A stretch of 54,864 bases of DNA from Hydrogenothermaceae bacterium (GTDB lineage Bacteria; Aquificota; Aquificia; Aquificales; Hydrogenothermaceae), in assembly GCA_015519975.1 (NCBI GenBank), contig WIAL01000033.1, positions 1 through 54,864 on the forward strand, written 5' to 3'. The notes beneath the pieces were generated by a model, which did not search any database, had not been told where the DNA came from, and worked only from the letters and a program-made list of their open reading frames with translations. The first letter of the stretch is position 1. Every line of letters starts with the position of its first letter. Made by a program: the position numbers and the translations under genes. Below are positions 33,837 through 50,627 of this stretch, piece after piece.

Positions 33837-33860
33837 TTTTTTCAGGAAGCAGTAATAAAA

Positions 33861-33889
33861 GAAAATTAAAAGAAGGGACAAATGTCCCT
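33861..33889 (-). terminator. Intrinsic terminator after the 103-aa membrane protein gene
   Basis: Minus-strand stem AGGGAC / GTCCCT with a 4-base loop, followed by TTCTTTTAATTTTC. It separates the 34208 gene from the 33797 gene, so the latter needs its own promoter, where the motif is found. Confidence 0.6.
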
Positions 33890-33899
33890 AAAAGAAAGG

Positions 33900-34208: not shown

Positions 34209-34235
34209 GACTAACACCTCCTGTGAAGTAAAAGA

Positions 34236-34787: not shown

Positions 34788-34890
34788 GACTAACACCTCC
34801 GTAAAAGAATTTGCTCCTGTGGAGCTTCCTAAAAACTCCTAAAGCTTTTAGAATGCCCCACAGGAGCTTTGGAAGTGTTAGCCTTTTACT
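34788..34890 (-). promoter_or_regulatory. Two-state structured leader (possible RNA switch) of the SWIM gene
   Basis: On the minus strand a 13-base element (34883-34871, GGCTAACACTTCC) can pair along its whole length, with two G-U pairs, with the SD/spacer GGAGGTGTTAGTC (34800-34788). A 10-bp perfect hairpin (GCTCCTGTGG / CCACAGGAGC) lies inside. A second pairing, GTAAAAG with CTTTTAC (34889-34883 with 34807-34801), crosses the first, so the two exclude each other: one hides the ribosome site, the other frees it. No known riboswitch class recognised. Confidence 0.6.
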
Positions 34891-35011
34891 GAAATTACTG
34901 CTTCTATATGGAAATATTCTTTTGCAAGTAAATTTTGATTAAAATTTATTAAAAGAGATGGTCATTTAAAAGCTTTTTAGACAAGCTAAAAGATTTAGTA
35001 AAAATTATATG

Positions 35012-36082: not shown

Positions 36083-36100
36083 TTTTCCACTTGGATAGTT

Positions 36101-36118
36101 TTATATAATTAACGTAAT
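36101..36118 (-). promoter_or_regulatory. Element promoter-like motif, spaced variant
   Basis: Minus-strand TTACGTTAATTATATAA, with two extra bases between CGTT and TATATA, 19 bases before the ATG at 36082. It overlaps the stop region of the gene at 36109. Confidence 0.5.
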
Positions 36119-37122
36119 AATCTAAAAAGTGTTTCAGGCTTTTCTTCTTCTTTCATTTTTGTAAGAATAAGATCCAATCCTTTTGTATCTTTTACAGCTC
36201 TTTCAAGTAAGAGTTTCTTTAAAAGGGTTTTATTAACAGATATTCCTTTTCTTTCCATTCTTCTAACATACTTTTCAACTGCATTTGATATTGCTCTATA
36301 AGTTTCTGTTGATTTAACTTCATTTTCTACATCTTTCATAGAATAAATTGTGTTTGCTGTTGCTCTTATTGAATATCCAAGCAGACTATCCGGAGAAAAT
36401 ACCTTTATTCCACTGCAACTTAAAACAGGAATTCCTGAAGAGTTTGAAACATCTAAAGTGCAAGTTCCGCATCTAAAGTGCTGATAATCTGAAACTAAAA
36501 TACATCTATTAGAAATTGGAAATATCTCTTTTTTCTTTTTAATATTTACTTTTTCAGCTATATCTTTTGCTATTTCATTAAAATCATCTATTCCAAGAGT
36601 TTCTCCATTTATTATTTTTGCATGGGATAATATTTGAGAAGATATTGACATAAGGGTTTTTATGTAATCTATAACAGCTTTTGTATTTATATAATCTGTT
36701 GTAGTTTGTGCTTTTGCTACTGAGTTTAGATATTCAATTCTTGTCAGGTTTATTATTCCATTTTCAGATAAGGAAACAGTATAAAAATCGTTAATGGTTT
36801 TTTGAAATACAGATGGATATTTTTTTGAAAGTTCCATAAATACAAGAGTAGGAAGGGAAACTTCAATAGTTATTCCTTCACTTTTTAATCTTTCAAGTGC
36901 TTTTGATATTTCTTTTCTTTCTGCTTCTCTGATTCCTTTCTCGGCTCTAATAGTTTTTCCAAATCCTTTTTCTTTTGACTTTTCACGTGTAATGCTTTTT
37001 TGTTTTGATTTTTCTGTTGATTTTGCTTTAGTGCTTTCTGTGCTTTTATTTACTTTCACTTCCGGGGATGCAAGTGCTATAGATGCTGCAAGCAAGCTAA
37101 ATATAAATGCTTTTTCAATCAT
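36109..37122 (-). CDS. Secreted protein of unknown function, 337 aa
   Basis: Signal peptide AFIFSLLAASIALASPEV, then a Lys/Ser/Glu-rich low-complexity stretch (residues 20-60), a helical part, and a Cys cluster in the middle (RCILVSDYQHFRCGTCTLDV and LSCSG) that could form disulfides outside the cytoplasm. C-terminal third is charged and helical. Last gene of the subtilisin operon; the start overlaps the previous stop and AGGAGG precedes it. It might be the substrate of the protease, which is inference. Confidence 0.65.
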   Translation of the reverse strand: MIEKAFIFSLLAASIALASPEVKVNKSTESTKAKSTEKSKQKSITREKSKEKGFGKTIRAEKGIREAERKEISKALERLKSEGITIEVSLPTLVFMELSKKYPSVFQKTINDFYTVSLSENGIINLTRIEYLNSVAKAQTTTDYINTKAVIDYIKTLMSISSQILSHAKIINGETLGIDDFNEIAKDIAEKVNIKKKKEIFPISNRCILVSDYQHFRCGTCTLDVSNSSGIPVLSCSGIKVFSPDSLLGYSIRATANTIYSMKDVENEVKSTETYRAISNAVEKYVRRMERKGISVNKTLLKKLLLERAVKDTKGLDLILTKMKEEEKPETLFRLLR

Positions 37123-37513
37123 TCTTTTCCTCCTGAAATGATATTAAAAGTGGAGATAAAAATAATGAAAGAAGATAGTAAGGGTCTTTATTAATGAAAG
37201 CTAAAAATAAAATGCAGGAAGTAAAAATTGAAATGAAAATAAGAGAGTTTTTAATATCTATCTTTCTTTTAGGTTTTTCTTTCTTAATTTCCGGAAGTTC
37301 CCCTTTTATGGCTTTTAAAAGCTCATCTTTATTTTTAAAAAGAAGTATATCCTGGAAAGATGTATCTAAATTCTCATATTCCTGTAATGAAGAATGTAAA
37401 TAACCAATAAAAAATCCGCAAATAGTAAGTAAAATAAGAGCAATAATATCTTTTTCAAAAATAGTAAAAGCTATAGCCAAAATGTAAAAAACAATGCTGT
37501 ATCTGTTTAGCAT
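37115..37513 (-). CDS. Membrane protein, 132 aa, in the subtilisin operon
   Basis: From ATG 37513, overlapping the protease stop by 7 bases, with GGAG upstream. Two N-terminal spans (SIVFYILAIAFTIF, IIALILLTICGFFIGYL), a charged cytoplasmic or periplasmic loop, then two more (SLIFISIFTSCILFLAF, YYLLSLFLSPLLISF). No family recognised. The frame extends upstream but without a ribosome site. Confidence 0.65.
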   Translation of the reverse strand: MLNRYSIVFYILAIAFTIFEKDIIALILLTICGFFIGYLHSSLQEYENLDTSFQDILLFKNKDELLKAIKGELPEIKKEKPKRKIDIKNSLIFISIFTSCILFLAFINKDPYYLLSLFLSPLLISFQEEKND

Positions 37514-38862
37514 TTTCTTCTCCTGCTTATAATATAACGTGCAAACAAGATAAAGATTATCCAGGTAAATGAAAAACTTGTTGTATTTCCAAAACTGCAT
37601 CCACCTGATTTATAAACTATTTGATTTTCTTTTAATGAACTTGCATAGCATACTATTTCTTTATCAACCTCAACTATGCAGCTGTCAGATATACCGCAAT
37701 GTTTGCAATCTCCTTCCCACTCTACAGGCTCATAGGCATTTAACTTAACTGATGAATATAATAGGACTTTAAAACTACATTCACTTTTATTACAGCTTCC
37801 AAGCAGGGATGTTATCGTTGTATCTGTAATTACTTTTAAAAATGTATAGATAGAAAAGAAAGATATTTTATAAAGCTTCATTAAATCAAGAGTTCCTCCG
37901 GATTTTGTTCTATTTTCAAGGTAAATGGAAGGATTTATTGAAGATGTTATTATCTGTTTTATCTCTTTTAAATCTTTATCTGTATTCATTTCCCTTGCTA
38001 TTACAACTGAAGCAGATACAAATGGAGAGGACATAGATGTTCCATACATTCCAAAAGCATATCCAGGAGCTGTCAGGTCAACTGACTTTTTTCCATAATT
38101 TGAAAAATCAAAAAGGTTATTTTCCTTTGTTGAAGCTCCGACGCATATAACATTTTCAAAATCATTTGTGTATAAACATGGATATGAATTTTTAGTTTCG
38201 TCAAGATTACTCCCATCATTTCCTGCAGAAGTTACAAGCATTATTCCATTTTCTTTTAACTTCTTTATTTCTTTCCTTACCAAGTAGCTATCAGATTGTG
38301 AAGAAAAGGAAGCATTAATTACAGCTATGTTAAATCCTTCTTGTTTCTTTTTTATTATGTATTCATAGCAGGTTATTTCATTAAAAAGATTTCCGAAGTC
38401 TTTTTCAATAAACTTACAAGGAATAATTTGAGGATTATAAAGAACCGAAGCTATAACCTTAGAGACACCTGTCCCATGTCCTGTATTATCTGAAACATCA
38501 CTGCTGTCATCAATCGCATTGTAAGGCTCTATTATCTGATACATATCTCTTTCATTAAGACCGCTGTCCATTACTGCAATAATATAGCTATTTGGCTGAA
38601 AGGATATATAAGCATTTACGCTATTAACAGCCCAGCCTATATCATTTTCCTGCAATTTTATTTTTTTGTTTTCTTCTATTGCTTCTATGCAGTTTAAAGG
38701 AAGATTATTTAGCTTTACAGGCTCAATATCTATAAGAAAAATGCTATTGTTTATCTGTTTTTTAATATTGGTATTTAAAATGCAGTTTTCATTCTTTAGC
38801 TTTACTATATACTCATCTGCAAATGAAAAGGAAAAAAGAAAAAGAAGGAGAAGGAAAATCAT
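37507..38862 (-). CDS. Membrane-anchored subtilisin-like serine protease (S8)
   Basis: 451 residues. Signal peptide (FLLLLFLFSFSFADE), an inhibitor-like N-terminal part, then the triad: Asp in AVMDSGLNERD, His in DNTGHGTGVSKVIA, Ser in YGTSMSSPFVSASVV, plus the oxyanion Asn in TSAGNDGSN. A Cys-containing domain (CKHCGISDSC) and a C-terminal span (TSFSFTWIIFILFARYII) ending RRRKC anchor it outside the cytoplasm. Start overlaps the previous gene (ATGA). Unusual cargo for a mobile element; probably processes a co-encoded surface protein. Confidence 0.88.
   Translation of the reverse strand: MIFLLLLFLFSFSFADEYIVKLKNENCILNTNIKKQINNSIFLIDIEPVKLNNLPLNCIEAIEENKKIKLQENDIGWAVNSVNAYISFQPNSYIIAVMDSGLNERDMYQIIEPYNAIDDSSDVSDNTGHGTGVSKVIASVLYNPQIIPCKFIEKDFGNLFNEITCYEYIIKKKQEGFNIAVINASFSSQSDSYLVRKEIKKLKENGIMLVTSAGNDGSNLDETKNSYPCLYTNDFENVICVGASTKENNLFDFSNYGKKSVDLTAPGYAFGMYGTSMSSPFVSASVVIAREMNTDKDLKEIKQIITSSINPSIYLENRTKSGGTLDLMKLYKISFFSIYTFLKVITDTTITSLLGSCNKSECSFKVLLYSSVKLNAYEPVEWEGDCKHCGISDSCIVEVDKEIVCYASSLKENQIVYKSGGCSFGNTTSFSFTWIIFILFARYIISRRRKC
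37528..37541 (-). promoter_or_regulatory. Weak element motif inside the subtilisin gene 3' end
   Basis: Minus-strand CACGTTATATTATA, differing from the consensus at the first bases, 15 bases before the ATG at 37513. It may give the last two genes an internal promoter. Confidence 0.35.
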
Positions 38863-39353
38863 CTTTTTCTCCTTTTTGGAAGAAACTCATTAATAAAAAA
38901 TCCAAGAAGTGCAAGAAAAGAAACAAGTGTTAAAACAAGCATTGCAAATGGAAGTGGAGTTTGCTGTGCTGATTTTATAACAGCATCATAATAGGTTTTA
39001 ACCTGCTTTTCTGTTTGAAATAGTTTATCCTTTTTAGCAATTACTTTTTTATATTCCTCTTTTGCTTTTTTTAGTTCCTCTTTAGCTTCTTTACATTCTT
39101 CAGTTTCTACAGGTTTATCGTCAAGATTGAAATTTTCGCAGTTAAACTCAACATCAAACTTTGCTTTGTCAAGTTTTTGCTCTGCAAGTGCAACTATGTT
39201 TGCAAAGTCGTATGAAACCCTCAAATCCCACATTTTATTAACCTTGTCAAAAAATGAAGAATAGGACTTATAGAGGCTAAAACCAACTATTATTAGCATT
39301 GCAAGAAGAAGTATTTTTCTATACTGATGCTTTATTACTGTTTTAAAATCCAT
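38859..39353 (-). CDS. Two-span membrane protein with coiled coil, 164 aa
   Basis: N-terminal span (ILLLAMLIIVGFSLYKSY), a ~90-residue charged region with a coiled coil (ECKEAKEELKKAKEEYKKVI), and a C-terminal span (FAMLVLTLVSFLALLGFFI) followed by LPKRRKR. Not recognised. Coupled on both sides (TAA-to-ATG with 3-base gap upstream, ATGA overlap downstream), so it is an integral part of the subtilisin operon. Confidence 0.68.
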   Translation of the reverse strand: MDFKTVIKHQYRKILLLAMLIIVGFSLYKSYSSFFDKVNKMWDLRVSYDFANIVALAEQKLDKAKFDVEFNCENFNLDDKPVETEECKEAKEELKKAKEEYKKVIAKKDKLFQTEKQVKTYYDAVIKSAQQTPLPFAMLVLTLVSFLALLGFFINEFLPKRRKR

Positions 39354-39356
39354 TAT

Positions 39357-39863
39357 TTACCCCCTTACAGGAAACTCTATCTTTGGTTTTCCTTCTTCAT
39401 CTATAAAAAGAATTGCCTCAAATGTTTTACCTGCTTTAGATTTAAAATCTTTTATAGGAACTTTATCCCCTTGAAGGACATATACAGCTATATCTCTTGT
39501 AATTGTTTTTGAATACATCTTTTTATAGACAAATGCTTTACAGGAAGAACAGAAGTAAGTTTTTTGGCTTTCTCTTATTATTCCTCCGCATTTACATTTA
39601 TCCACATTAATAGCTTCTTTTATCTTATCTTCATCAAATATAAGTTCTAATTTTTCATTAAGCTTTACACCAGATGAAAATTTTTTACCTGATTTTCTTG
39701 AGACAAGACCATCAACATAAATGGTTAAACCCTGAAAAAGATAATCAATTTCGCTTTCTTTGAACTTCCTTCCAAAAAACTCCTTCCATACTTTCTTTTT
39801 ACATCCTGAGCATTCATAAAAATTTTCTTTTTCAATAATTTCAGAGCCGCATTTGCATTCCAT
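39357..39863 (-). CDS. Stand-alone topoisomerase C-terminal repeat protein
   Basis: 168 residues from ATG 39863 (GGAGG upstream). Two repeats, each with two Cys pairs in zinc-ribbon style (CKCGSEI ... CSGCKK; CKCGGI ... CSSCKA) followed by a block ending in KSGKKFSSGVKL or KAGKTFEAILFI. This is the pattern of the Toprim_Crpt repeat found at the C-terminus of type IA topoisomerases. No catalytic topoisomerase part is present. First gene of the operon, directly behind a motif copy. Confidence 0.72.
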   Translation of the reverse strand: MECKCGSEIIEKENFYECSGCKKKVWKEFFGRKFKESEIDYLFQGLTIYVDGLVSRKSGKKFSSGVKLNEKLELIFDEDKIKEAINVDKCKCGGIIRESQKTYFCSSCKAFVYKKMYSKTITRDIAVYVLQGDKVPIKDFKSKAGKTFEAILFIDEEGKPKIEFPVRG

Positions 39864-39890
39864 AATATTTTCCTCCAATCTTTTTTCTAA

Positions 39891-39903
39891 TATATAAACG
39901 TAA
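39891..39903 (-). promoter_or_regulatory. Element promoter-like motif driving the subtilisin operon
   Basis: Minus-strand TTACGTTTATATA, then GGAGG about 14 bases further and the ATG at 39863. Confidence 0.65.
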
Positions 39904-39932
39904 GGATTGGAAGGATTGATATTATTTGATTT

Positions 39933-40011
39933 GACATTCTGTATTGGAATGTCGTGTAATTAAATGTATTTTGGATTGTCACGAAAATTAAAAATTATCT
40001 TTAACGTGACA
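39933..40011. promoter_or_regulatory. Two inverted repeats between the subtilisin operon and fic
   Basis: GACATTC / GAATGTC (39933-39953) and TGTCACG / CGTGACA (39977-40011); the second extends to GGAT on one side and ATCC on the other with a one-base bulge. They lie in the divergent intergenic space and could be operators or RNA hairpins in the fic leader. Confidence 0.5.
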
Positions 40012-40070
40012 TCCTATAGATATAGTAGTATCTTAAATTTATTCAATTTTTTCTTTTAAAAAGGTGACAA

Positions 40071-41027
40071 ATGATTAATGAAGCATTAATAAAAAAAAGA
40101 AAAGAGATTATTGAAAAGCTTGGAGGACTTCCAGAGCCAAAGATACAGAATAAGGAATGGCTTTACTTACTTGAAGAAGAAACAAGAAACTCAATTTTAG
40201 TTGAAGGATATTTTATTTCTGAAAAAGAACTTAAAGAAGTTTTATCCGGAAATAAGCCAATGACAAGAACTGAAGAAGAAGCATTTAACTATTTTAGAAC
40301 TGCCAGTTTTATTTATGAACTTGCCTATGAAAACTATAAACAAAAAGAATTCATATTTGCAGTTCCTTTAATAAGACAGATAAATAAAAGTTTAGGATAT
40401 AAAGGAGAGTTTAGAAAAGGAAAGATTAAAATAGTAGGAGCAAAGTTTAATCCTCCGGAAATGTATATAGAAGAATGGTTAAGAATATTTGTGAAATTTG
40501 TTAAGGATGTAGAAAAAGAAGAAAACTTTAAAAAGTTGGCAGTATCCCACGCATTTTTTGAAGAAATACATCCCTTTGAAGATGGAAATGGAAGAACAGG
40601 AAGGATAATTCTAAATTACATGTTAATAAGCAAAGGTTATCCTCTTGTAATAATAAAAGGAGATGATAAAAGTAAAAAACTTTATTATAAATCTTTAGAA
40701 GAAATAGATTTACAGATGAAGGATATCTTTGAAAAGTTTAAAAATAAAAAGCCTGAAGAAAAGCAAATTCTTGAAAGATTAAATAATGTTAATTCAAAAC
40801 TTCTGCTAAATTTAATACTAGAAGGATTAAGGGAAAGTATGGATAGAGTAATTATAGGAATTTATAAGGAAAGGGGAGCTAAATTAGAGCCTGTATCTAA
40901 GCTTTTAGAGGAAATTGGGTACAGCTCTAAAAGCTCAAGGCAGCTAATAAAAAGAGGGAAAATAATAGCAGTAAAAGTTAAAAATACATGGATGAGCAGC
41001 AAAGAAATTATTGAAAAACTTTTATAA
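40071..41027 (+). CDS. Fic-domain AMP/UMP-transferase with N-terminal inhibitory helix
   Basis: 318 residues. Catalytic motif HPFEDGNGRTGR at residues 167-178 with the catalytic His. Near the N-terminus SILVEG (41-46) matches the inhibitory [S/T]xxxE[G/N] motif, so activity is probably self-restrained. A C-terminal ~70-residue winged-helix-like part (SKLLEEIGYSSKSSRQLIKRG) follows. It probably modifies a host or element protein with a nucleotide. AAAGGTG precedes the ATG. Convergent with a 46-aa gene. Confidence 0.88.
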   Translation: MINEALIKKRKEIIEKLGGLPEPKIQNKEWLYLLEEETRNSILVEGYFISEKELKEVLSGNKPMTRTEEEAFNYFRTASFIYELAYENYKQKEFIFAVPLIRQINKSLGYKGEFRKGKIKIVGAKFNPPEMYIEEWLRIFVKFVKDVEKEENFKKLAVSHAFFEEIHPFEDGNGRTGRIILNYMLISKGYPLVIIKGDDKSKKLYYKSLEEIDLQMKDIFEKFKNKKPEEKQILERLNNVNSKLLLNLILEGLRESMDRVIIGIYKERGAKLEPVSKLLEEIGYSSKSSRQLIKRGKIIAVKVKNTWMSSKEIIEKLL

Positions 41028-41162
41028 ATTATTTTTATATTTTTCAACAAAAGCTTTTTCTAAAACCTTTCCTTCATCTTTCATAATTTTTTCAATATTC
41101 TTATCTTTTTTAGCATACTTTTTTAAACTTCCTGCAATTTTTAGTCGTTTTGGAATATGCAT
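41022..41162 (-). CDS. Small basic protein, 46 aa, convergent with fic
   Basis: Begins MHIPKRLKIAGSLKKYAKK and is Lys-rich and helical. SD AAGGAATAAG precedes the ATG, and a degenerate CGTTATATGATAT element lies about 30 bases further upstream. Overlaps the fic stop by 6 bases on the opposite strand. Could be read with the HD gene or regulate fic by antisense; no direct evidence. Confidence 0.5.
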   Translation of the reverse strand: MHIPKRLKIAGSLKKYAKKDKNIEKIMKDEGKVLEKAFVEKYKNNL

Positions 41163-41232
41163 TTCTTATTCCTTAAAACATGTAATATCATATAACGATA
41201 GTAATACAAAAATTTTTATTGTCAAACTCCTT

Positions 41233-42282
41233 TTAAAGTTCCACTTCATTTACATTCTGTGATTGTATTTCTACCTTTTTAAATCTTTTGCTTTCAAGTT
41301 CTTTTTGGGAAAATACTTTATCTGCTTTTATTGGTAATACACTAAAATCTACAACCTTACCGCTTGGAAGCTTTATGGATTTTTTAACAATCCTTTCATC
41401 TGAATATCCCCTTTCTAATAATTCATCTATTATTACATCTTCACTTACAGGCTCTCCTAATATTTCATTTATCTGTTTTACAATCTTTTGATGAAGTGCA
41501 GGATTTAATATTAAAAAGTAATCTCCGGAGTAAAAATAAAGGTCTGTAGAAGATAAAGTCCATTTTTTAAATGCATCTATGTAAGCCTGTGCAAGGTTAA
41601 GTTCTTCAATTTCTTCCTTTCTTTCTATAAATACTTCATTTCTTTCCTGTGCAACGCTCATTCCATCTGCTTTCTTTAATATCCTTAGAATAGGATTATC
41701 TACCATAACCTTATAATGCTCTAAATGAACTGCCTCAAGCATCATTGTTATGTATCTAAAGTCATATAAAAAGCTTTCATAGTATTTCTTTCCGGCTCTT
41801 TCAAGTAATATCCCAAATGCCAATCCGGATAAATGGGTTGAATTTATGTAGTTAACTCCTTTATTTCCTTCTATTTTAAAATCTTCATCCAGAATATCTT
41901 TTGTTGAAGTTATGAAGGGGATGTAATACCATCTGCTTTTTATCTCATAAGCTCCTATCTTTCCTATATCGTGTAAAAGGCCTGTTAGTGCAAGGTGAAA
42001 AAGCATTTTTTCATATCTGCTTTGATATTCTCCTGTCTTTTCATTTTCATATCTTGGAAGATATTCATCCCTGTTTTCTTCAAATATTTCTATCATCTTG
42101 TTTGCAACTTCAAGGGAATGTATAAATAGACCTTCATCTTCTTTGTGGTGGTGCTCCTTACTTGCAGGATAGACATAAGTTATTTTTTCAATTTCAAGGA
42201 CAAAAGGCTCTAAAAACTCATAAAGCCTTCCAAGTTTTATCTTTAAATCAGTTATTAATTTCAATTCCTTTAACCTTCTCAT
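41233..42282 (-). CDS. HD-domain protein resembling the TraI_2 (MobH) relaxase N-domain
   Basis: About 350 residues. YPASKEHHHKEDEGLFIHSLEVANKM followed by LLHDIGKIGAYE is the three-His plus HD metal site of the TraI_2 family, used by MobH relaxases in integrative elements. The C-terminal part (HQKIVKQINEILGEP...) looks winged-helix-like. Full MobH proteins are usually longer, so it may be a nuclease or phosphohydrolase for replication instead. Starts inside the HTH gene; ATG 42282 or TTG 42264 are both possible. Confidence 0.65.
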   Translation of the reverse strand: MRRLKELKLITDLKIKLGRLYEFLEPFVLEIEKITYVYPASKEHHHKEDEGLFIHSLEVANKMIEIFEENRDEYLPRYENEKTGEYQSRYEKMLFHLALTGLLHDIGKIGAYEIKSRWYYIPFITSTKDILDEDFKIEGNKGVNYINSTHLSGLAFGILLERAGKKYYESFLYDFRYITMMLEAVHLEHYKVMVDNPILRILKKADGMSVAQERNEVFIERKEEIEELNLAQAYIDAFKKWTLSSTDLYFYSGDYFLILNPALHQKIVKQINEILGEPVSEDVIIDELLERGYSDERIVKKSIKLPSGKVVDFSVLPIKADKVFSQKELESKRFKKVEIQSQNVNEVEL

Positions 42283-42571
42283 ATAAAGGTAGGAGATTAA
42301 CAAAGGAAAGATTGTAGTTTATTATTTGCCTTCTTGTGAGATTTGGAATGATTTTATCAAGTTCCTCATCTTTAAATCCAAATATTTTTGCAACTTTCTT
42401 AAATCTTTCTATTTCTCCTTTTGTAGGGACTTTCCTTTCTATATCCCTTGTGTATTTGTTAACAGTATAAGCTGATATTCCTACCATATCTGCTATTTCA
42501 TGGACGCTGTATCCCTGCTTGTAAAGCTCTCTGGCTTCTTCTATTTTTTCCTTTGGTATTATCTTTGGCAT
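42248..42571 (-). CDS. HTH DNA-binding protein, 107 aa
   Basis: N-terminal 45 residues (EEARELYKQGYSVHEIADMVGISAYTV) form a resolvase/Hin-type helix-turn-helix. The remainder (RFKKVAKIFGFKDEELDKII) is helical. AGGAGG precedes the ATG. Overlaps the HD gene's 5' end by about 35 bases, so the two are coupled; it may bind DNA for the HD protein. Confidence 0.75.
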   Translation of the reverse strand: MPKIIPKEKIEEARELYKQGYSVHEIADMVGISAYTVNKYTRDIERKVPTKGEIERFKKVAKIFGFKDEELDKIIPNLTRRQIINYNLSFVNLLPLYEKVKGIEINN

Positions 42572-42598
42572 TTTCTTCCTCCTGGATGTTTTTATAAC

Positions 42599-42610
42599 TA
42601 TAAAACGTAA
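42599..42610 (-). promoter_or_regulatory. Element promoter-like motif
   Basis: Minus-strand TTACGTTTTATA, followed by GTTATAAAA, then AGGAGG and the ATG at 42571. Confidence 0.6.
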
Positions 42611-42613
42611 GAT

Positions 42614-43147
42614 TTAATATTTATAAACAAATATTAATTTCCTCTTTGTTAATTCCTTTTGTGAGGATGACAGCTTCCTTTTCCCTCCTTTCCTTTTTAC
42701 TTTTATTCCTTTTGTGTATCCAAGTTCTATCCAGTTATCAGCTTTATATACAGCTCCGGTGCGGGGCGGTTCTACAAATGTCATTAATCCTATTAAATCA
42801 TCTCCATATTTTTCTTTATATAGTTCTTTAACCTTTTTTCTTGCCTCTTTTAATACACGTGTTCCAAGATTTTTCTCTCTAATTTCCAGCCTAAAGATAT
42901 TATTGTTTAGATACAATTTTGCCCTTTCCTGGGGAGAAAGAAACTTGGGAATTTCTAAAAATTCTTCTACATTTTGATAGGATAAAGGTGGACTTGAAAA
43001 TCCTATAATGCCTACCGGAAGTCTATTTTTCAATATCGCAAACAGGATTCTTCTCCCAACGATTCCCTTACTTTTTGGATAATGTGTTTTAAAAAGATTT
43101 TTAAAATAACTATTTGAAAAGCTTACTTCTATTAGCTTAATTGACAT
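42614..43147 (-). CDS. DUF4338/DruA-like (GNAT-like) protein
   Basis: 177 residues. GIVGRRILFAILKNRLPVGIIGFS, NNNIFRLEIREKNLGTRVL and TFVEPPRTGAVYKADNWIELG resemble the DUF4338 family (DruA of Druantia defence) and, more remotely, Mom-type acyltransferases of phages. Such proteins modify nucleic acid or act in defence; the chemistry is not known. Only this component of a Druantia system is present (no DruE helicase). No strong SD; a motif copy is 28 bases upstream. Confidence 0.6.
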   Translation of the reverse strand: MSIKLIEVSFSNSYFKNLFKTHYPKSKGIVGRRILFAILKNRLPVGIIGFSSPPLSYQNVEEFLEIPKFLSPQERAKLYLNNNIFRLEIREKNLGTRVLKEARKKVKELYKEKYGDDLIGLMTFVEPPRTGAVYKADNWIELGYTKGIKVKRKGGKRKLSSSQKELTKRKLIFVYKY

Positions 43148-43174
43148 GATTTTTCTTTTTAGTTTTTGTATCTG

Positions 43175-43188
43175 TTATATAAACGTAA
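43175..43188 (-). promoter_or_regulatory. Element promoter-like motif
   Basis: Minus-strand TTACGTTTATATAA, 28 bases before the ATG at 43147. Divergent to the XRE regulator's control region. Confidence 0.6.
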
Positions 43189-43222
43189 GAAATAAGGGGG
43201 TTTTAAGAGATATAGAGGAAAT

Positions 43223-43257
43223 TTTTGATTATAAATTTATAATCAAAATACTTTAGT
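43223..43257. promoter_or_regulatory. Operator region of the XRE regulator
   Basis: A 26-bp perfect palindrome (TTTTGATTATAAA and its complement, 43223-43248) is followed directly by ATACTTTAGTAT (43246-43257), which has ATACT / AGTAT arms. The latter also appears, with one more T, near 49892. It lies about 70-100 bases upstream of the regulator start, the place expected for autoregulation. Confidence 0.6.
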
Positions 43258-43284
43258 ATTAAAATATTTATTAATCAATTTTTT

Positions 43285-43303
43285 AATAGCTTTTAAAGCT
43301 ATT
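43285..43303 (+). other. Hairpin in the XRE leader
   Basis: AATAGCTTT, one T, AAAGCTATT: 9-bp perfect arms, 24 bases before the XRE start. A near-identical palindrome (AATAGCCTTAAGGCTATT) lies at 46464 after the iterons. Confidence 0.5.
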
Positions 43304-43326
43304 GTTAGTAAAGGAGAAATTTTAAA

Positions 43327-44319
43327 ATGGACGAAAAAGAAAAGCTGCAAAAAGAGATAGGGCAGAGATTAGAGGAGATTATAAAAAAATTAGGGTTAAA
43401 GAAAGGTGATATTGCAAAAATATTAGGAGTGGATTCTAGTCTTATTTCTAGAATTTTAAAGGGGGAGAGGACTTTAAATGTATGGCAGCTTAAAAAATTA
43501 TATGATGAATTAAATATTGATTTGAATTACCTAATTACAGGAAAACGTTTAAAATCCAAATTCATGCCTTCCTCTAAATGTTATTTTATTGGGAGTGCAT
43601 TAAAGTTTCTGGAAGAAAAAAACAATTACAATTCCAAGAAAATGTTTGCATTAATTCCTTCACTCGTAAAAGAAAGTGAATATTTATCAATAAGGGATAA
43701 CAAAAAGGAAGCCTGTGAGGATTTAATATATGAAATTGCTCTAGTGTTTGGTGCAAATCCGGAGTGGATAGAAGGACTTGAGGCTGAAAAAATCCTTTTC
43801 AGAAAGGAGTTTAACGCTTTATATGTTGATGATTTAACGAAAAAATATGAAGAAGTTATAAAAGAAATAGAAGAAAAGACAGAACGAAACTATAGTTTAA
43901 AATTATCTCAAGGTTTTATAAGTCAAGATAAATTGAGAATAGCAATTATCGCAGAATATAGAGCAGGAACACATATAGGTGGAATAGCATTTGTAGATGA
44001 ACAACCATATAATACAGAATATTGGTGGGGAGAGGTTGAAAAAATCAAATACTTAAAGGATTTTTTCTTAAAAACAGCAAAAGATATTTCTTTTTCTATA
44101 ATTTCAGAACACGATTTTGATTACTTTTCATACGAGCACTCGAAACATTCGCTAAGTTATGTGATAAAAAATATAACAATAATAAAAGCATTGCATAACA
44201 ACATACAATGGGCATTAGAATTTGAAGATAAAAGCTTCATAAGTGAGATATTGGAGGGAAAAAGAAAATCTAAAGCAGTTGATTTAAAGGTTTGGGAAAT
44301 AATGCATAAGATTAAATAG
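43327..44319 (+). CDS. XRE-family transcriptional regulator with unknown C-terminal domain
   Basis: 330 residues. Residues about 12-65 are a lambda-repressor-type HTH (KKGDIAKILGVDSSLISRILKGERTLNVWQLKKLYDEL). The other 260 residues have no recognised motif. AAGGAG lies 10 bases before the ATG. Position between the leftward operons and the rightward replication module suits a CI-like switch. Likely binds the palindromes just upstream and the related sites at 49877-49931. Confidence 0.82.
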   Translation: MDEKEKLQKEIGQRLEEIIKKLGLKKGDIAKILGVDSSLISRILKGERTLNVWQLKKLYDELNIDLNYLITGKRLKSKFMPSSKCYFIGSALKFLEEKNNYNSKKMFALIPSLVKESEYLSIRDNKKEACEDLIYEIALVFGANPEWIEGLEAEKILFRKEFNALYVDDLTKKYEEVIKEIEEKTERNYSLKLSQGFISQDKLRIAIIAEYRAGTHIGGIAFVDEQPYNTEYWWGEVEKIKYLKDFFLKTAKDISFSIISEHDFDYFSYEHSKHSLSYVIKNITIIKALHNNIQWALEFEDKSFISEILEGKRKSKAVDLKVWEIMHKIK

Positions 44320-44370
44320 CAAATCAAATTTAGCGTCAATTTGACAAATTAGGTTTACCCAAAAAAAACC

Positions 44371-44399
44371 TTGACAAAAAAGATGAAAAAAAATATAAT
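44371..44399 (+). promoter_or_regulatory. Perfect-consensus sigma-70 promoter for the replication module
   Basis: TTGACA at 44371, exactly 17 bases, TATAAT at 44394. A second TTGACA lies 30 bases upstream (44341). It is among the strongest-looking promoters in the window and stands before the structured leader of the replication genes. Confidence 0.8.
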
Positions 44400-44430
44400 A
44401 ATACATATGAAAAACAAATAAGAAAAAAAT

Positions 44431-44448
44431 CCCGGCAAGGAGGCCGGG
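44431..44448. promoter_or_regulatory. Hairpin with SD in its loop; terminator on the opposite strand
   Basis: CCCGGC, loop AAGGAG, GCCGGG. Read on the plus strand, the loop presents a ribosome site 8 bases before ATG 44451. Read on the minus strand, the same GC stem is followed by ATTTTTTTC, a good intrinsic terminator, although no minus-strand gene is present here; this suggests an antisense RNA. Confidence 0.7.
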
Positions 44449-44450
44449 AA

Positions 44451-44675
44451 ATGACCATAATACATGAAAAAATAAGCGTAGTATATAAAAATAATACAAA
44501 ATCAACAAAATATCAATGTCTTTTCCTTTGTGCCTCCTTCTGGGTGAAGGAGGTATATTCATGTATAAGTATATACTTTCATGCTTGCATTCTGAATGGG
44601 GTTCGCTTTTTTTCGAGTATGAAAAATGGTTCAATTCGAAAACGACGGAGGAAGCTGTTGAAATCATCATTTTGA
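44451..44675 (+). CDS. Possible leader ORF of the replication operon
   Basis: 74 codons starting 8 bases after the looped AAGGAG (MTIIHEKISVVYKNN...). It overlaps the next gene by 115 bases in another frame and has no family. Its translation would run through the hairpin at 44533-44553 and could free that gene's ribosome site, like leader peptides in plasmid copy-number control. The C-terminal half is probably without function of its own. Confidence 0.45.
   Translation: MTIIHEKISVVYKNNTKSTKYQCLFLCASFWVKEVYSCISIYFHACILNGVRFFSSMKNGSIRKRRRKLLKSSF
44533..44553 (+). promoter_or_regulatory. SD-sequestering hairpin
   Basis: CCTCCTTC, loop TGGGT, GAAGGAGG: an 8-bp perfect stem that buries the only strong ribosome site of the gene at 44561 (7 bases from its ATG). 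Confidence 0.75.
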
Positions 44676-45211
44676 CTCTCCGAGATACTCTTCCGCAAAG
44701 CCATGAAATTCAAGGTTCGGAACTGTCTGAGAAAGATATGAAGAAAAACTGGCTTTTTGAAATCGTTCAAAAACAGGAATTCATTGGGCTTGCAAAAAAA
44801 GAAGCGCAACAAAGAAAAAAGAAAAATCCTATGAAAGAAAATTTCGACATCGCAATAGAAGCAATATCTGCAACACTCCGGAACGTCTACAAAGACATTG
44901 ATTGGCGGGGGAGCAAGGGAAAACGGACATACGCAAAACCTGAGTTAATTTCGCTCATATCATCCCTTCCTCTGTCATTTGAAAATGAGAAAGTGTCCCG
45001 CAAAACCTTGAAAATGCTGGGTTTCATTGATGCCCAAAAAGAAACAAATCTCGACAATTTCGCTGAAATATATCAAAAACACAAACAAAATGCACAAAAG
45101 ACCTTTTTAGTTTCGAATCTCTTTGAAAAACAAAGGAAAAAAAGAAGAAAGAAATCTTCCGGCCCTTCATCTTCAAGTGCTCCAGCAGCTCAGCAATTAT
45201 CCTTGATTTGA
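44561..45211 (+). CDS. Replication-module protein, 216 aa, unknown family
   Basis: Start ATG 44561 (MYKYILSCLHSEWGSLFF) with GAAGGAGG in a hairpin. Soluble; the C-terminal tail is basic and then Ser/Pro/Ala-rich (KKRRKKSSGPSSSS). Base composition is visibly richer in G and C than the neighbours, which hints at a different origin. Position between a leader with copy-control features and the iteron-bearing gene suggests a role in replication initiation or its control. No family recognised. Confidence 0.6.
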   Translation: MYKYILSCLHSEWGSLFFEYEKWFNSKTTEEAVEIIILTLRDTLPQSHEIQGSELSEKDMKKNWLFEIVQKQEFIGLAKKEAQQRKKKNPMKENFDIAIEAISATLRNVYKDIDWRGSKGKRTYAKPELISLISSLPLSFENEKVSRKTLKMLGFIDAQKETNLDNFAEIYQKHKQNAQKTFLVSNLFEKQRKKRRKKSSGPSSSSAPAAQQLSLI

Positions 45212-45228
45212 TTGGGAGGTGAGGGGTG

Positions 45229-46497
45229 ATGATATCCAAAGAAGAAATGATTGCAGAGATAGAAAAAGAGTACAGGAGAAGGAAAAAAAGTGCAAAAACA
45301 AATGAAGAACGAAAGAGAATACGAGAAATAAGAAACGAGGCAATATCGCTTGTTTCATCCCCAAATTTTGCGGATTTTGCAAAAAATGAAATACTCAGGG
45401 CAGTGATGGGTCGCATTGAGAAAAATGAAAATACAGAAAAATTTTATAAATCCTATAATAAAAACAAAACACAACTCCCTATCCTCCACATAATATCCAG
45501 GAACAATCCATATCTATTGACCCCCGAAATATTACAAAAAAACGATGAATTTAAAATAAACTCATACTGGAGCAGTTTTATTCTTCAAGCAACTGAAGAT
45601 GTAGAAATTTTTGAACCTTACGATATTAAAAACTTACTTGCTATTTTATCTGTAAAGTCAGCATATATAGAACACTTAAAAAAAGAAAAATTATCAGATG
45701 AGGAAATATTAAAAATTTTAGTAATTAATGGATTTATCATTCCTTTACCTATGGTTGCTGAAATTAGGGAAATTTCAAAGAGAAAAGAAAACTATCAAAG
45801 AATTATAAACAGTATAGACAAAGCTCAGAAAATACAAATTAAAGGTAAATTATCTGTCGATATAAAAGGAGAACCTTTAGAAGTTAAAAAAGCATTTTCT
45901 TTTATTAGTGAATACGAAGAAATTACTTACAAGAATAAAAAAGCTTTGAATATTAAACTATCTCCCACAGTAGCGAGATTACTAATTGAAAAAAAAGGCA
46001 GATATTACAATAGAAAATTAATCAATAATATTCCGGATAATCTTTTACCTCTTTACTTTACATTAGACAATTTCAGACTTAATCAAAACATAAAAGAAAA
46101 AATAATAAGTAAGAAAGCCCTTATAGAAAATTCGAGACTCATATACGGAAAAACAGCAAAAGAAAGACCGGACAAGGTAGAAAAATATCTTATAGAAAAA
46201 ATAAACAAACTCAAAAATGGAATAGCTATCGATAAAAATACCAAAATTAAAATGATAAAAGATTGGGAAGAAGTAGAAATGTATAATGGAGAAAAAGGGA
46301 TAAAGATAATATATGAGTCCAAAACCCTACACTCTGAATCCGAAAACCCTACACTCTCAATCCGAAAACCCTACACTGCCAATCCAAAAACCCTACACTC
46401 TCAATCCAAAAATGCACTTCTAACTCTTGAAAATCAACGATTTCATTTAGTCTTAATATTCTTAATAGCCTTAAGGCTATTATTCAGGTCTTTTTGA
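45229..46497 (+). CDS. Putative replication initiator (Rep-like) carrying iterons in its 3' end
   Basis: About 422 residues; start ATG 45229 with GGGAGG 9 bases upstream (a GTG one codon earlier is possible). N-terminal part is charged and helical; residues about 190-365 contain two segments (FSFISEYEEITYKNKKALNIKLS and VEKYLIEKINKLKNGIAIDK) that look like paired winged helices, as in iteron-binding Rep proteins, by appearance only. The C-terminal ~45 residues are encoded by the iterons and look like a by-product. Confidence 0.55.
   Translation: MISKEEMIAEIEKEYRRRKKSAKTNEERKRIREIRNEAISLVSSPNFADFAKNEILRAVMGRIEKNENTEKFYKSYNKNKTQLPILHIISRNNPYLLTPEILQKNDEFKINSYWSSFILQATEDVEIFEPYDIKNLLAILSVKSAYIEHLKKEKLSDEEILKILVINGFIIPLPMVAEIREISKRKENYQRIINSIDKAQKIQIKGKLSVDIKGEPLEVKKAFSFISEYEEITYKNKKALNIKLSPTVARLLIEKKGRYYNRKLINNIPDNLLPLYFTLDNFRLNQNIKEKIISKKALIENSRLIYGKTAKERPDKVEKYLIEKINKLKNGIAIDKNTKIKMIKDWEEVEMYNGEKGIKIIYESKTLHSESENPTLSIRKPYTANPKTLHSQSKNALLTLENQRFHLVLIFLIALRLLFRSF
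46321..46408 (+). repeat. Four 22-bp iterons (likely replication origin)
   Basis: AAAACCCTACACTCT recurs at 46321, 46343, 46365 (ending GC for CT) and 46387, exactly 22 bases apart, followed each time by SAATCC-type spacer. A degenerate fifth unit begins at 46409. Exact two-turn spacing of direct repeats next to a Rep-like gene is the hallmark of an iteron origin. All lie within the coding frame. Confidence 0.85.
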
Positions 46498-46503
46498 CCT
46501 GAA
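46464..46503 (+). other. Two hairpins at the end of the Rep-like gene
   Basis: AATAGCCTTAAGGCTATT (18-bp perfect palindrome) and TTCAGGTC-TTTTT-GACCTGAA (8-bp arms) lie back to back across the stop codon. They may be part of the origin (primer or single-strand initiation) or a processing/termination signal before the helicase gene. Confidence 0.55.
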
Positions 46504-46537
46504 AATATTTAGAAAAAAGAAAAAGGAGGAAAAAGAA

Positions 46538-48508
46538 ATGGAAACCTTAAACGAAAAAATCCAATTATCTCATGGATTAATTTTGAAATTATTAGATAGA
46601 GCAGGTTGGAGTTATAAGAAAATCGGGAATGTATATATGGGGGCTTGTCCGGTTTGCAAAAATGGGACCAGAACTCCAAATACAAAATTTAATTTAGATA
46701 CTAATTCTTTTAAGTGTTTTAACAAAAGTTGCGGAGTTTCCGGAGGATTAAAAGATATAGCTGAAAATTTAGGTGTAGATTTTAGAGAATTTTTAATAGA
46801 TGAAGGAATAATAGAAGATAAAAAATTACCTGAAAAAGATAAGCAATATCAAGGCTTTAAAAGGGAGAAAATGCAAGATAAAGGGATAACTACCAATGGA
46901 GAAAAAAAAGAAAGAAAAATAGAAATAGATTTAGAGAAAATATCAACAGCTGTCTTAGATGAAGAAACTAAAAATTATCTTTTATCAAGATATATAAACC
47001 CTACAACTGTAAACGGTTATGTAAGAATGGTAAGACCTAAACAAGATAAGTCTTTTAGTTATTTAGAAAACTATTTCAAAGAAGGCTATAAATTACTTAT
47101 TCCAGCTTTTGACCTTGAAGGAAATTTAAAATCTGTAAAGATAAGGAATGTAAAAGGAGATAAAGAACCAAAAGTTAAAAATCTAAAAGGATTAAGGCAG
47201 TCAATTATTGGAATAGATAAGCTGAAAAAAAATATAAATGATTATGTGATAGTAGTTGAAGGAGAAATTGACTATTTAACAGGCGTTTATTTATCACCAG
47301 GAGATAATTTTATTGCCATACCATCTTCTACATATATCTTTGCAGTTGAAGAAAAAGAGGTTTTACCTGAAAAGGTTATTTTATTACTGGATAATGATGA
47401 TGCAGGTAAATCTGCGACCGAAAGAATAGCAACAGATTTAAAAAAAGAAGGAAAAAAAGTTTATATAGGTCAATATCCGGAAGGAATAAAAGATTTAAAT
47501 GAGCTTTTAGCGAAACATAAAGGTGATACAGATGAAACTTTAGAGGAACTACAAGAGATTTTATTTATGGCATATCAAAATCCTTTTACTCTTACTAAAA
47601 CACTAAAAGAAACAGGAAAATCACTAATAGAAAGATTAAGAAACAGAGTTGAAGAAGCTGAAAAAGAAGGGAAAGAAAGACCTGAACCATTAGCATTTAA
47701 AACAGGTTTAGAGTTTCTTGATGAGTTGTTAGATGGCGGGTTAAGAAGGGGATTATATGCAATAGCAGGACAACCAGCAATTGGTAAAACTTCTTTTGTT
47801 TTAGCACTTGCAAAGCACTTAGCAGAAAATAAAAATAATGCTTTAATTTTCAGTTTAGAAATGACAGACGAAGATTTATTAATTCAGATTTTGAGCTGGC
47901 TTACAGGAATATCCAAAAGAAAAATATTAGATGAAACAATTAATAGATTTGAGCTTGAAGAAATAGAAGAAGCATTAAACAATTCTATTTTTAACCATAT
48001 TTTTATCGATACCGAAAGCAGAACTGTAGAAGATATTGAAAGCAAGGTAATAGATACTTTAAACGATATAAACAATAGTCGTTTAATTGCTTTTGTAGAT
48101 TATCTTCAGCAAATCAAACCAAGCAAGGAGTTTTTAAAAAGTGATTATAGACTGCAGATGAAAGATATTAGTTATAAGCTGAAAGAAATAGCTAATAAGT
48201 ATAATATCCCTCTGTTCGTTATATCTTCTACCCAAAGAGATGGATATAATGCAAAAGACAAAAAGTCTGAACCAAACTATATAGCAATGTTTAAAGAAAG
48301 TGGAGATATAGAATATAGTCTTTATGCAGGATATTATTTAGATTATCCATCTGAAAAAGAACTTGAAGGATTCACAAAAGCAGAATGGGAACTTCCTATA
48401 AAGATAGTGAAAGTAAAATCCAGATTTGGAAGTGTTAAGGACGAAAGACATAAACATATTTCTAAAGTTGCTGTATTGAATTTTAAAAATGGAGAACTAA
48501 TATGTTAA
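46538..48508 (+). CDS. Bifunctional primase-helicase (TOPRIM + DnaB-like)
   Basis: 656 residues. N-terminal zinc finger (CPVCKNGTRTPN ... CFNKSC, residues about 35-70), TOPRIM motifs YVIVVEGEIDYL and LLLDNDDAG, then a RecA-fold helicase with Walker A AGQPAIGKTS, SLEMTDEDLL, and Walker B LIAFVDYLQQIKP. Layout as in T7 gp4 or Twinkle. It should prime and unwind at the element's origin. GGAGG lies 8 bases before the ATG. Confidence 0.93.
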   Translation: METLNEKIQLSHGLILKLLDRAGWSYKKIGNVYMGACPVCKNGTRTPNTKFNLDTNSFKCFNKSCGVSGGLKDIAENLGVDFREFLIDEGIIEDKKLPEKDKQYQGFKREKMQDKGITTNGEKKERKIEIDLEKISTAVLDEETKNYLLSRYINPTTVNGYVRMVRPKQDKSFSYLENYFKEGYKLLIPAFDLEGNLKSVKIRNVKGDKEPKVKNLKGLRQSIIGIDKLKKNINDYVIVVEGEIDYLTGVYLSPGDNFIAIPSSTYIFAVEEKEVLPEKVILLLDNDDAGKSATERIATDLKKEGKKVYIGQYPEGIKDLNELLAKHKGDTDETLEELQEILFMAYQNPFTLTKTLKETGKSLIERLRNRVEEAEKEGKERPEPLAFKTGLEFLDELLDGGLRRGLYAIAGQPAIGKTSFVLALAKHLAENKNNALIFSLEMTDEDLLIQILSWLTGISKRKILDETINRFELEEIEEALNNSIFNHIFIDTESRTVEDIESKVIDTLNDINNSRLIAFVDYLQQIKPSKEFLKSDYRLQMKDISYKLKEIANKYNIPLFVISSTQRDGYNAKDKKSEPNYIAMFKESGDIEYSLYAGYYLDYPSEKELEGFTKAEWELPIKIVKVKSRFGSVKDERHKHISKVAVLNFKNGELIC

Positions 48509-48579: not shown

Positions 48580-48693
48580 TTAATGTTTTCTTTCTTTTAA
48601 AAAGTCCTGGATAGAAGTAAAAAGCATAACCCCGCCCAATGCTAATATTACTATTACAAACAAAGCAAAAAGGGTTAAAATTAAGGTTTCCAT
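48580..48693 (-). CDS. Tiny membrane protein, 37 aa (cassette copy A)
   Basis: METLILTLFALFVIVILALG..., one span, ending SIQDFLKERKH. AAAGG lies 8 bases before the ATG. The ending matches that of the 34-aa gene at 49340-49444 (SIQDYLEERKH), so the two are paralogs. Convergent with the helicase gene. Confidence 0.65.
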   Translation of the reverse strand: METLILTLFALFVIVILALGGVMLFTSIQDFLKERKH

Positions 48694-48697
48694 TTGT

Positions 48698-48805
48698 TTA
48701 ACCTTTCTTAACAACTTCCTTTACTTCATCAATAACTATGTATAACCCGAATGAAATTAAAACAAGAAAAGCTAAAACAGAGAGTAAAATTATTAATGTA
48801 TCCAT
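48698..48805 (-). CDS. Tiny membrane protein, 35 aa
   Basis: MDTLIILLSVLAFLVLISFG... one span, basic tail EVVKKG. Its start overlaps the end of the preceding frame (ATGGATACATTA), so it is coupled. No counterpart in copy B. Confidence 0.6.
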   Translation of the reverse strand: MDTLIILLSVLAFLVLISFGLYIVIDEVKEVVKKG

Positions 48806-49084
48806 TTTTCCATCTCCTTTATTTTCTTTTGCAATTTTAACCATATAAAACCAAAGGAAAAAGCAAATATAAAAAACACTACTAAAACCCCGATTAATAA
48901 CAACTTCTTTGTAAAAACTCCGGGATAAATCATTTTTATTAAAGTTCCTATTCCTGCCCCTGTAGTTAAAACAATGATTGCTAAAGTTCTAAAATAACCT
49001 TCTAATACTTTAATCTTTTCAGGCTCTATATTTCTTTTCTCTAATTCTAATTTTTTAAGTTCAAGTTCTTTTTTCTTTTTCCAT
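48793..49084 (-). pseudogene. Coiled-coil membrane protein with apparent frameshift (copy A)
   Basis: The natural start (ATG at 49084, overlapping the previous stop as TAATG) reads only seven codons before TGA. Shifting frame in the run of six A (49069-49074 on the complement) gives ELELKKLELEKRNIEPEK, then FRTLAIIVLTTGAGIGTL and a second span ending KKIKEMEKWIH. This matches copy B (MDKEQREIELKKLEIEK...). The shifted frame is also in line with the 80-aa gene's stop. Frameshift, slippage site or sequence error. Confidence 0.6.
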
Positions 49085-49326
49085 TATTCAAACTCTATAT
49101 ATAAGGTTAAAGGCTCAAATTCACTGCTATATTTCCATCTTATATTTTGGATTTTTCTCTGCAGCTGCCATTTATCAACTTCAGATTTAGCTTTTATTTT
49201 TAAGGACAGGTCAAACTTTGCATCTTCTTCAGGAGCTTCTATTATTTCAGCCTTTTCAATTTCCGGTAAATTATTTATTTCTTCTAAAAGTTTTAAGTAT
49301 TTTAATAATTCTATTGTTTTACTCAT
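49084..49326 (-). CDS. Small acidic protein, 80 aa, unknown
   Basis: MSKTIELLKYLKLLEEINNL, then an acidic centre (EIIEAPEEDAKFDLSLKIK) and a beta-rich end (LTLYIEFE). AAAGG lies 9 bases before the ATG. It separates the two cassette copies. Unrecognised; its stop is in frame with the following coiled-coil sequence. Confidence 0.6.
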   Translation of the reverse strand: MSKTIELLKYLKLLEEINNLPEIEKAEIIEAPEEDAKFDLSLKIKAKSEVDKWQLQRKIQNIRWKYSSEFEPLTLYIEFE

Positions 49327-49339
49327 ATCTGAAAACCTT

Positions 49340-49444
49340 TTAGTGTTTTCTTTCCTCTAAATAATCTTGAATAGATTGGAAAGCCATTATTCCAAAAACT
49401 AAAATTGTTAGTATTCCTAAAATTGTTATTATTACTTCAACCAT
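49340..49444 (-). CDS. Tiny membrane protein, 34 aa (cassette copy B)
   Basis: MVEVIITILGILTILVFG..., one span, ending SIQDYLEERKH. Start overlaps the end of the preceding frame (CAATGG). Paralog of the gene at 48580-48693. Confidence 0.6.
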   Translation of the reverse strand: MVEVIITILGILTILVFGIMAFQSIQDYLEERKH

Positions 49445-49721
49445 TGTTCTAACTCCTTTAATTTTTTTCTGATAGAAAACCATAATGACAAAACAAAACC
49501 TAATAGTAAAACAAATACAATAGAAATTAGAGAAAGCAAGTAAATATGCATTTGAACGCTATAATTTTAAATGTTAAAGTTCCTATCCCAGCCCCAACAG
49601 TGAGTAAAGCTATAACTAAAGTCCTAAATAATCCTTCCTTTATTTTTAACTTTTCAAGTTCTATTTTAGCCTTTTCAATCTCTAACTTCTTAAGCTCTAT
49701 TTCTCTCTGCTCTTTATCCAT
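49432..49721 (-). pseudogene. Coiled-coil membrane protein with apparent frameshift (copy B)
   Basis: ATG 49721 opens MDKEQREIELKKLEIEK, the EGLFRTLVIALLTVGAGIGTL span, then leaves frame and stops at 49527. The frame from ATG 49551 supplies the matching second half (HIYLLSLISIVFVLLLGFVL ... KKLKELEQWLK). Together they align with copy A over their length. The break is at a different place from copy A's. It could also be two separate small proteins. Confidence 0.6.
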
Positions 49722-49751: not shown

Positions 49752-49780
49752 AATATAATCTAAGATTAGTAACTTATCAA
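49752..49780 (-). promoter_or_regulatory. Sigma-70-type promoter of the small-membrane-protein cassettes
   Basis: Minus-strand TTGATA (49780-49775), 17 bases, TATATT (49757-49752), 31 bases before ATG 49721. Confidence 0.6.
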
Positions 49781-49789
49781 TTATATCTA

Positions 49790-49857
49790 TCCCCAATCCA
49801 ATCCAACCCAAACCAAACCAATCCAATCCAAACCAAAACCTAAACCAATCCAAATCC
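49790..49857 (-). repeat. G-tract array (13 GG tracts on the minus strand)
   Basis: On the plus strand 13 runs of CC (one CCCC, one CCC) separated by 2-4 A/T bases, built from CCAAT and CCAAA units. On the minus strand this reads GG-ATT-GG-TTT-GG and so on, which could form two-tier G-quadruplexes. It lies directly upstream of the cassette promoter. Confidence 0.75.
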
Positions 49858-49876
49858 ATTGACTAAAAATAAAACC

Positions 49877-49966: not shown

Positions 49967-50241
49967 CTACTTTATCTTAAGAACTTTTAAGAATTCTTCC
50001 GGTTCATATATAGGAATTTCTCTTGCTTTAAAATCTTTTGGATTCCTTGTTATTATAGATCTACATTAGAATGAAAAGCCGATGAATAGATTACAGCATC
50101 CTCAAAACCTTTAAGCTTTAAATTTTTAGCTGCTTTTAAAACTATTCTATTAACCGGAGCAATTTCAAATAAAGAGAAAATAAATTCCAATGATTTATTT
50201 GCGTCTTCTTTTGATAAAAATTTACTTACTAAAATATTTAC
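49967..50241 (-). pseudogene. VapC-like PIN toxin remnant
   Basis: Minus-strand pieces VNILVSKFLSKEDANKSLEFIF, KLKGFEDAVIYSSAFHSNVD and, one frame over, IITRNPKDFKAREIPIYEPEEF. These are the middle and C-terminal PIN motifs; the N-terminal catalytic Asp segment is missing and a base is lost near 50066. It follows a broken antitoxin. Confidence 0.7.
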
Positions 50242-50253
50242 TTTCTAAATGTT

Positions 50254-50448
50254 TTAATCATCTTCCTCAATTTTTCTATTCTTTAATAATCCTTTAAGGT
50301 TTTTTACTATAGGGGTTAATTTTTCTTCTGTTGTGGATTTAAAATAATCTTAAATGAGTTTAGACACAGAATATCCTTTCTCTTTTGATATCTTTTTCAT
50401 CTTAGCAATAATTTCTTCATCAATTCTTAAAGTTAATTTTGATTTCAT
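50254..50448 (-). pseudogene. Ribbon-helix-helix antitoxin with internal stop
   Basis: MKSKLTLRIDEEIIAKMKKI and GYSVSKLI, then an in-frame TAA (50350-50352), then DYFKSTTEEKLTPIVKNLKG in the same frame to a stop at 50254. A single nonsense change explains it. Partner of the PIN remnant. Confidence 0.75.
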
Positions 50449-50627
50449 TTTTAAGGGATAGGATAACCTATCCCTAAGGATTAGCAAATAACCAATCACT
50501 ATCTGCCCAGCAAACTGGGTTAATGTATTTTTAAGTAAGCTATCTTCTGCCCAGCTCTCCAGGAGCTTTATATGTTTTCTTTTAATTATAAAAAATTTCC
50601 GAAAAAAATCAACTAATTTATTAAACC

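Follow-up and report, generated by a model that had tools for sequence, protein, structure and literature searches.

The window analyzed here is the whole of contig WIAL01000033.1 (54,864 nt) from a Hydrogenothermaceae bacterium (assembly GCA_015519975.1). Between positions 48580 and 49721 its minus strand carries, in order, a coiled-coil two-span gene (hereafter CC) of copy B, the accompanying one-span peptide, an 80-aa soluble gene (hereafter X80), the CC gene of copy A and two one-span peptides. The first-pass annotation had described two copies of a unit separated by an 80-aa gene, with CC out of frame at a different place in each, and all of these elements were found where it had placed them. 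Its description of the unit as CC followed by a single one-span peptide held for copy B, while in copy A an additional one-span peptide had been overlooked. The copy B CC gene (49432-49721) is broken; its 34-aa peptide (49340-49444; MVEVIITILGILTILVFGIMAFQSIQDYLEERKH) is intact, overlaps the 3' end of CC, contains one hydrophobic segment and matches the family profile with an E-value of 4e-18. X80 occupies 49084-49326, between copies B and A. The copy A CC gene (48793-49084) is broken at its start, and its end is overlapped by the peptide that had been missed (48698-48805; MDTLIILLSVLAFLVLISFGLYIVIDEVKEVVKKG; 35 aa, intact), which lies between CC and a 37-aa peptide ending in SIQDFLKERKH (48580-48693). 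The latter is likewise intact, matches the profile and contains one hydrophobic segment. Copies A and B share 66% identity in CC (47 residues; tblastn E 5e-17), far above chance, and 43% identity in their SIQDxLxERKH peptides. These two are the only CC copies in the genome from which the window derives. An AACC/ATCC-rich tract of short repeats is present just upstream of copy B (49780-49860).

The two CC genes are disrupted differently. In copy B, the frame encoding MDKEQREIELKKLEIEK...GAGIGTL is open from 49721 (first-span frame, 49721-49527) and is lost in the loop after the first span, while the second span and the C-terminus resume in another frame (49551-49432). Compared to intact relatives, including that of genome G004, the lesion is a 4-nt gap at ~49561/49562, where there is no homopolymer. 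The two halves of copy B display a dN of ~0.02 against a dS of 0.3-0.5 each relative to G004, indicating either that the break is recent or that the halves are still in use. In copy A, the ATG (49084-49082) overlaps the TAA of the upstream gene, and the frame that it opens runs for 7 codons before closing. The CC frame is open between the nucleotide immediately past that TAA and 48793; it shares the reading frame of the upstream gene (IEFE*WKKKKELELKK...), as the first-pass annotation had observed. The switch between frames falls within an A5-G-A6 tract whose A6 run spans 49069-49074; intact relatives start MDKEKEL... or MEKEKEI... Such a break, in an A6 run adjoining an A5 run, is what would speak for a homopolymer sequencing or assembly error. 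We nevertheless consider an error of this kind very improbable: uninterrupted window ORFs of at least 200 aa contain 135 A6/T6 runs and 77 longer ones, for a total of 212 A/T runs of 6 or more, the 4-nt gap of copy B lies outside any homopolymer, and other genomes also contain damaged copies, some with in-frame nonsense codons.

Relatives were identified using a profile built from 15 intact CC proteins, with which 41 genomes of Hydrogenothermaceae and 136 of the class were searched. The profile matched ~48 distinct places in 15 of the 41 Hydrogenothermaceae genomes, and 22 of the 136 genomes of the class contained matches. Copy number ranged from 0 to 12 per genome, and close relatives have none at all. 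A one-span peptide immediately follows CC at essentially every place. Counting those of the window, 46 distinct places could be scored, and 33 of these held intact CC-peptide pairs (one of the 33 is weak); at 11 places CC was broken and the peptide intact, at 2 both were damaged, and at none was the peptide broken and CC intact, these status calls having been made partly by eye. CC and its peptide are a real two-gene module, previously unnamed, that is present in multiple copies, has spread as one package to dozens of sites in genomes of thermophilic Aquificota and is missed by existing family libraries.

Lesions in CC genes of the relatives map near codons 5, 19, 26, 30, 33, 45-52, 57, 60 and 62, and include in-frame nonsense codons at codon 5 (G009:C12) and codon 19 (G009:C38). 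Since lesion positions differ, some are nonsense and the copy B gap lies outside a homopolymer, these findings argue for independent decay and make sequencing error a poor candidate. The first-pass annotation had offered slippage and naturally split proteins beside independent decay, and had asked whether the breaks are conserved in homologous elements. Comparison of relatives indicates that they are not: break points vary among them, each damaged copy being hit at a different position, and intact relatives exist for both window copies. A programmed frameshift, transcriptional slippage or a naturally split CC would accommodate the frame change at an A run in copy A, as well as the fact that the second half of copy B has its own ATG and that both halves look conserved relative to G004. 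We regard it as improbable in light of the intact pair in 33 scorable relatives and of scattered lesions, nonsense codons among them, that share no conserved signal; lesions at differing positions together with in-frame nonsense codons argue against a conserved programmed event. Taken together, these results support the view that the window CC copies decayed independently and are neither programmed nor naturally split; in themselves, the broken frames are a case of ordinary decay. The neighborhood contains other damaged genes. At 50000-50461, beside the cassettes, a DUF6364-type antitoxin gene is truncated, matching positions 1-32 of 70, and is followed by what by eye looks like its PIN-type partner gene, also broken.

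CC proteins are 80-102 aa in length and consist of a cytoplasmic coiled coil, two spans and a basic C-terminus. The partner peptide, of 29-50 aa with a single span, usually touches or overlaps CC and bears more positive charge at its C-terminal end. Two hydrophobic segments were found in CC in 30 of 31 pairs, and one in the peptide in all 31. An AlphaFold model of CC is a helical hairpin (helices 2-51 and 56-95; pLDDT 80) for which Foldseek returned no match at E <1, making the fold uninformative. Both genes are under purifying selection, with dN/dS values of ~0.06-0.42 for CC and 0.09-0.36 for the peptide. CC and peptide also co-diverge (Mantel r 0.82 over 31 pairs, p ~1e-4), with the same result when shuffling was restricted to within genomes, and CC sequence subtypes track peptide subtypes. 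The pair is inherited, diversified and inserted as a unit, and of its two genes the two-span one is the first to be lost in decay. Lone one-span peptides lacking CC were found in G019:C8, at a trpB site that is occupied by the full pair in G027, and twice in G026. In G006:C29 (L242:1876-2283), a CC-family one-span peptide lies directly behind a DUF2335 gene, which suggests that such a peptide can have another two-span partner.

Intact copies are patchily distributed and either fit seamlessly into or behind housekeeping genes of unrelated kinds or are carried by mobile elements. The neighbors, identified by eye, include prfB, trpB, argG, pyrD, pyrH, der, fabI and rimO/mtnA, among others, and are unrelated between copies; among 43 scored cases, the upstream housekeeping gene had the same direction as the pair in 36. 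Some copies lie next to replication genes on elements (window, G002:C3 and G015:C81). At the junction between an MltD-like gene and a 165-aa gene, the cassette is present in G026, G018 and G011, which belong to one genus, and its right half was seen in G039; this junction is empty in nine inspected relatives, where the MltD-like and 165-aa genes overlap or directly adjoin each other. The junction between FlgA-like and TolC-like genes is likewise filled in G004 and empty, with the genes overlapping, in G003 and G005. The flanking genes are complete after insertion at both junctions, implying duplication of the overlap, and the apparent duplication measures ~10-20 bp (ATGxxGGATAA at the MltD site and the gene overlap at FlgA/TolC). 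A fixed target-site duplication was considered and set aside, as divergence of the flanks prevents its length from being defined at either site. No recombinase accompanies the CC unit, which measures 380 bp.

We compared the module to known systems. Searches of Pfam, NCBIfam and PHROG yielded no match above threshold, the PDB yielded none, and no CC relatives were present in phage, plasmid and viral-contig collections. Likewise, known toxin, antitoxin and defense families yielded no match above threshold, and the open literature that was searched contained no description of the module. The first-pass annotation had proposed that the small membrane proteins might be virion coat, holin or conjugation parts of a resident element. 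The cassette does lie at the edge of an element that encodes a serine recombinase, a TraI_2/HD protein and a primase-helicase, and there was a weak holin match (Holin_3_6, 16.9 bits, below the cut-off of 28.4). However, most copies reside in chromosomal housekeeping operons devoid of phage or transfer genes, and neither a significant PHROG match nor relatives in the phage, plasmid and viral-contig collections support this proposal, which we consider very improbable.

Several small membrane proteins resemble parts of the module. Fst, Ldr and Lpt are small hydrophobic type I toxins. The peptide of the CC module is similarly a single-span protein of 29-50 aa that is often multi-copy; in contrast to these toxins, as compared on protein genes alone, its partner is a conserved coiled-coil two-span protein and not an antisense RNA, and it is the part that is kept upon decay. 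The 2TM effectors of Pycsar/CBASS type share the helical hairpin and coiled coil, and one of three CC proteins gave a sub-threshold match to PADLOC PycTM over the two spans (E 9e-4). This similarity is that of any two-span helical protein, and the CC module lacks a cyclase or sensor: none was found adjacent to CC, where the neighbors are varied housekeeping genes. DUF2335 (PF10097) proteins also consist of a soluble helical part followed by a two-span hydrophobic end, but none of the 15 CC proteins tested matched PF10097.

The closest parallel in organization is to type II toxin-antitoxin systems, which are also small two-gene units that touch or overlap, occur patchily and in multiple copies on mobile elements and chromosomes, and preferentially lose one gene. 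Unlike these systems, both products of the CC module are membrane proteins. Membrane-protein pairs were left aside in a 2009 survey of such systems, on the grounds that none of the type II systems detected until then had a membrane component, and the prediction of HicAB as a toxin-antitoxin system was based on two-gene, small, patchy and mobile criteria (PMC2701414). The CC module is a compact two-gene operon of small proteins, and its distribution is patchy and mobile, mobile elements included, albeit with no match in plasmid or phage collections. It is not homologous to any toxin or antitoxin fold known, and in place of a DNA-binding, autoregulating antitoxin it has a single-span peptide of 29-50 aa that matches no family. 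With the context agreeing and both homology and regulator lacking, we have not filed the module as a member of the toxin-antitoxin systems.

A second, unrelated family behaves in a similar way. At the locus that holds CC and its peptide in G026 and G011, G018 (G018:C1:723882, L156) contains an unrelated pair, referred to as FGK-2TM/1TM, composed of a 66-aa two-span gene (EFGKxLLNxxVAxxxF...) and a one-span peptide. FGK-2TM occurs at ~58 places in 17 of the 41 Hydrogenothermaceae genomes and in 32 of the 136 Aquificota genomes; 7 places are in the genome of the window itself (C60, C35, C33, C28 (two), C34 and C42). With few exceptions, a one-span peptide follows and overlaps the gene, and in a single case (G004:C235:8968, L232) the two are naturally fused in frame into a 99-aa protein. 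Like the CC module, this pair combines a two-span gene with an overlapping one-span peptide and is dispersed, and the two families have sites in common (the M16-peptidase/tRNA locus, rimO-mtnA and the fabI side), although they share no recognizable sequence relation. In the FGK-2TM family as well, the two-span gene was lost first (7 cases, compared to 1 of the reverse). For both families combined the asymmetry is 18 to 1, with a p value of 0.006 if lesions are proportional to length; this test is small, assumes that proportionality, treats copies as independent and uses status calls made partly by eye.

The early loss of the two-span gene, the lone peptides, the cognate pairing, the patchiness and the swapping of sites are in keeping with a toxin-antitoxin-like or defense module. 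We therefore favor, tentatively and from sequence comparisons, the reading that the window contains two decayed copies of a dispersed membrane module that is putatively toxin-antitoxin-like or acts in abortive defense. CC and the peptide would act together in a single membrane complex, where the two-span protein may be a costly, membrane-active effector that the one-span peptide would restrain or immunize against. In the genome of the window, both putative effectors would have been lost recently and the peptides kept. The main rival to this reading is that the pair is a benign accessory membrane micro-operon, serving in membrane stress or in the anchoring or assembly of its neighbors, beneficial to the host, spread by ordinary recombination and devoid of a toxic part. 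Strong purifying selection on both genes is consistent with such a role, as are the co-directional upstream housekeeping gene (36 of 43 scored), the orthologous retention at the MltD site and the many copies that look stably kept in operons. It is harder to reconcile with neighbors that are unrelated between copies, close relatives with no copy at all, a range of 0-12 copies per genome, copies on mobile elements and the loss of CC ahead of the peptide, and we consider it a realistic possibility, although less likely than not.

The toxin-antitoxin-like reading can be extended to both families, as an Aquificota class of wholly membrane-embedded two-gene conflict modules. This class would comprise at least 2 unrelated families and ~100 copies, each with a predicted two-span effector and a one-span antidote and with no soluble or DNA-binding component, lying seamlessly in or behind housekeeping operon genes and competing for sites. 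We view this broader proposal as speculative and, on balance, unlikely. If the modules do act in addiction or defense from within the membrane alone, the definition of such modules would have to be widened. The decayed copies expose an unnamed, co-evolving pair of tiny membrane proteins, and the natural replicates that accompany it (sites with and without the unit, copies that are intact or decayed, and swapped sites) make the function of the pair directly testable.

X80 belongs to a small family of soluble proteins, with loci at window 49084-49326, L025:6387-7261 and L027:17948-18160. Family library searches and PHROG gave no match for X80, and viral contigs contained no relatives of either X80 or CC. 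Paralogs are present in the same genome on C1 and C46, and a relative lies behind a CC-family one-span peptide in G004:C306. In G039:C16, an X80 relative is two genes from a gene that looks HEPN-like by eye and has no family match; this relative and a paralog precede that gene. Adjacent to the cassettes, window 29681-48508 is probably an integrated element, whose serine recombinase gene overlaps tRNA-Met at its end. It also encodes an S8 protease, Fic, TraI_2/HD and DruA-like proteins and a Toprim-DnaB primase-helicase, the last with relatives in G004, G039 and G002. Tandem repeats of 22 nt (46321-46430) lie within the 3' end of the ORF that precedes the primase-helicase gene.
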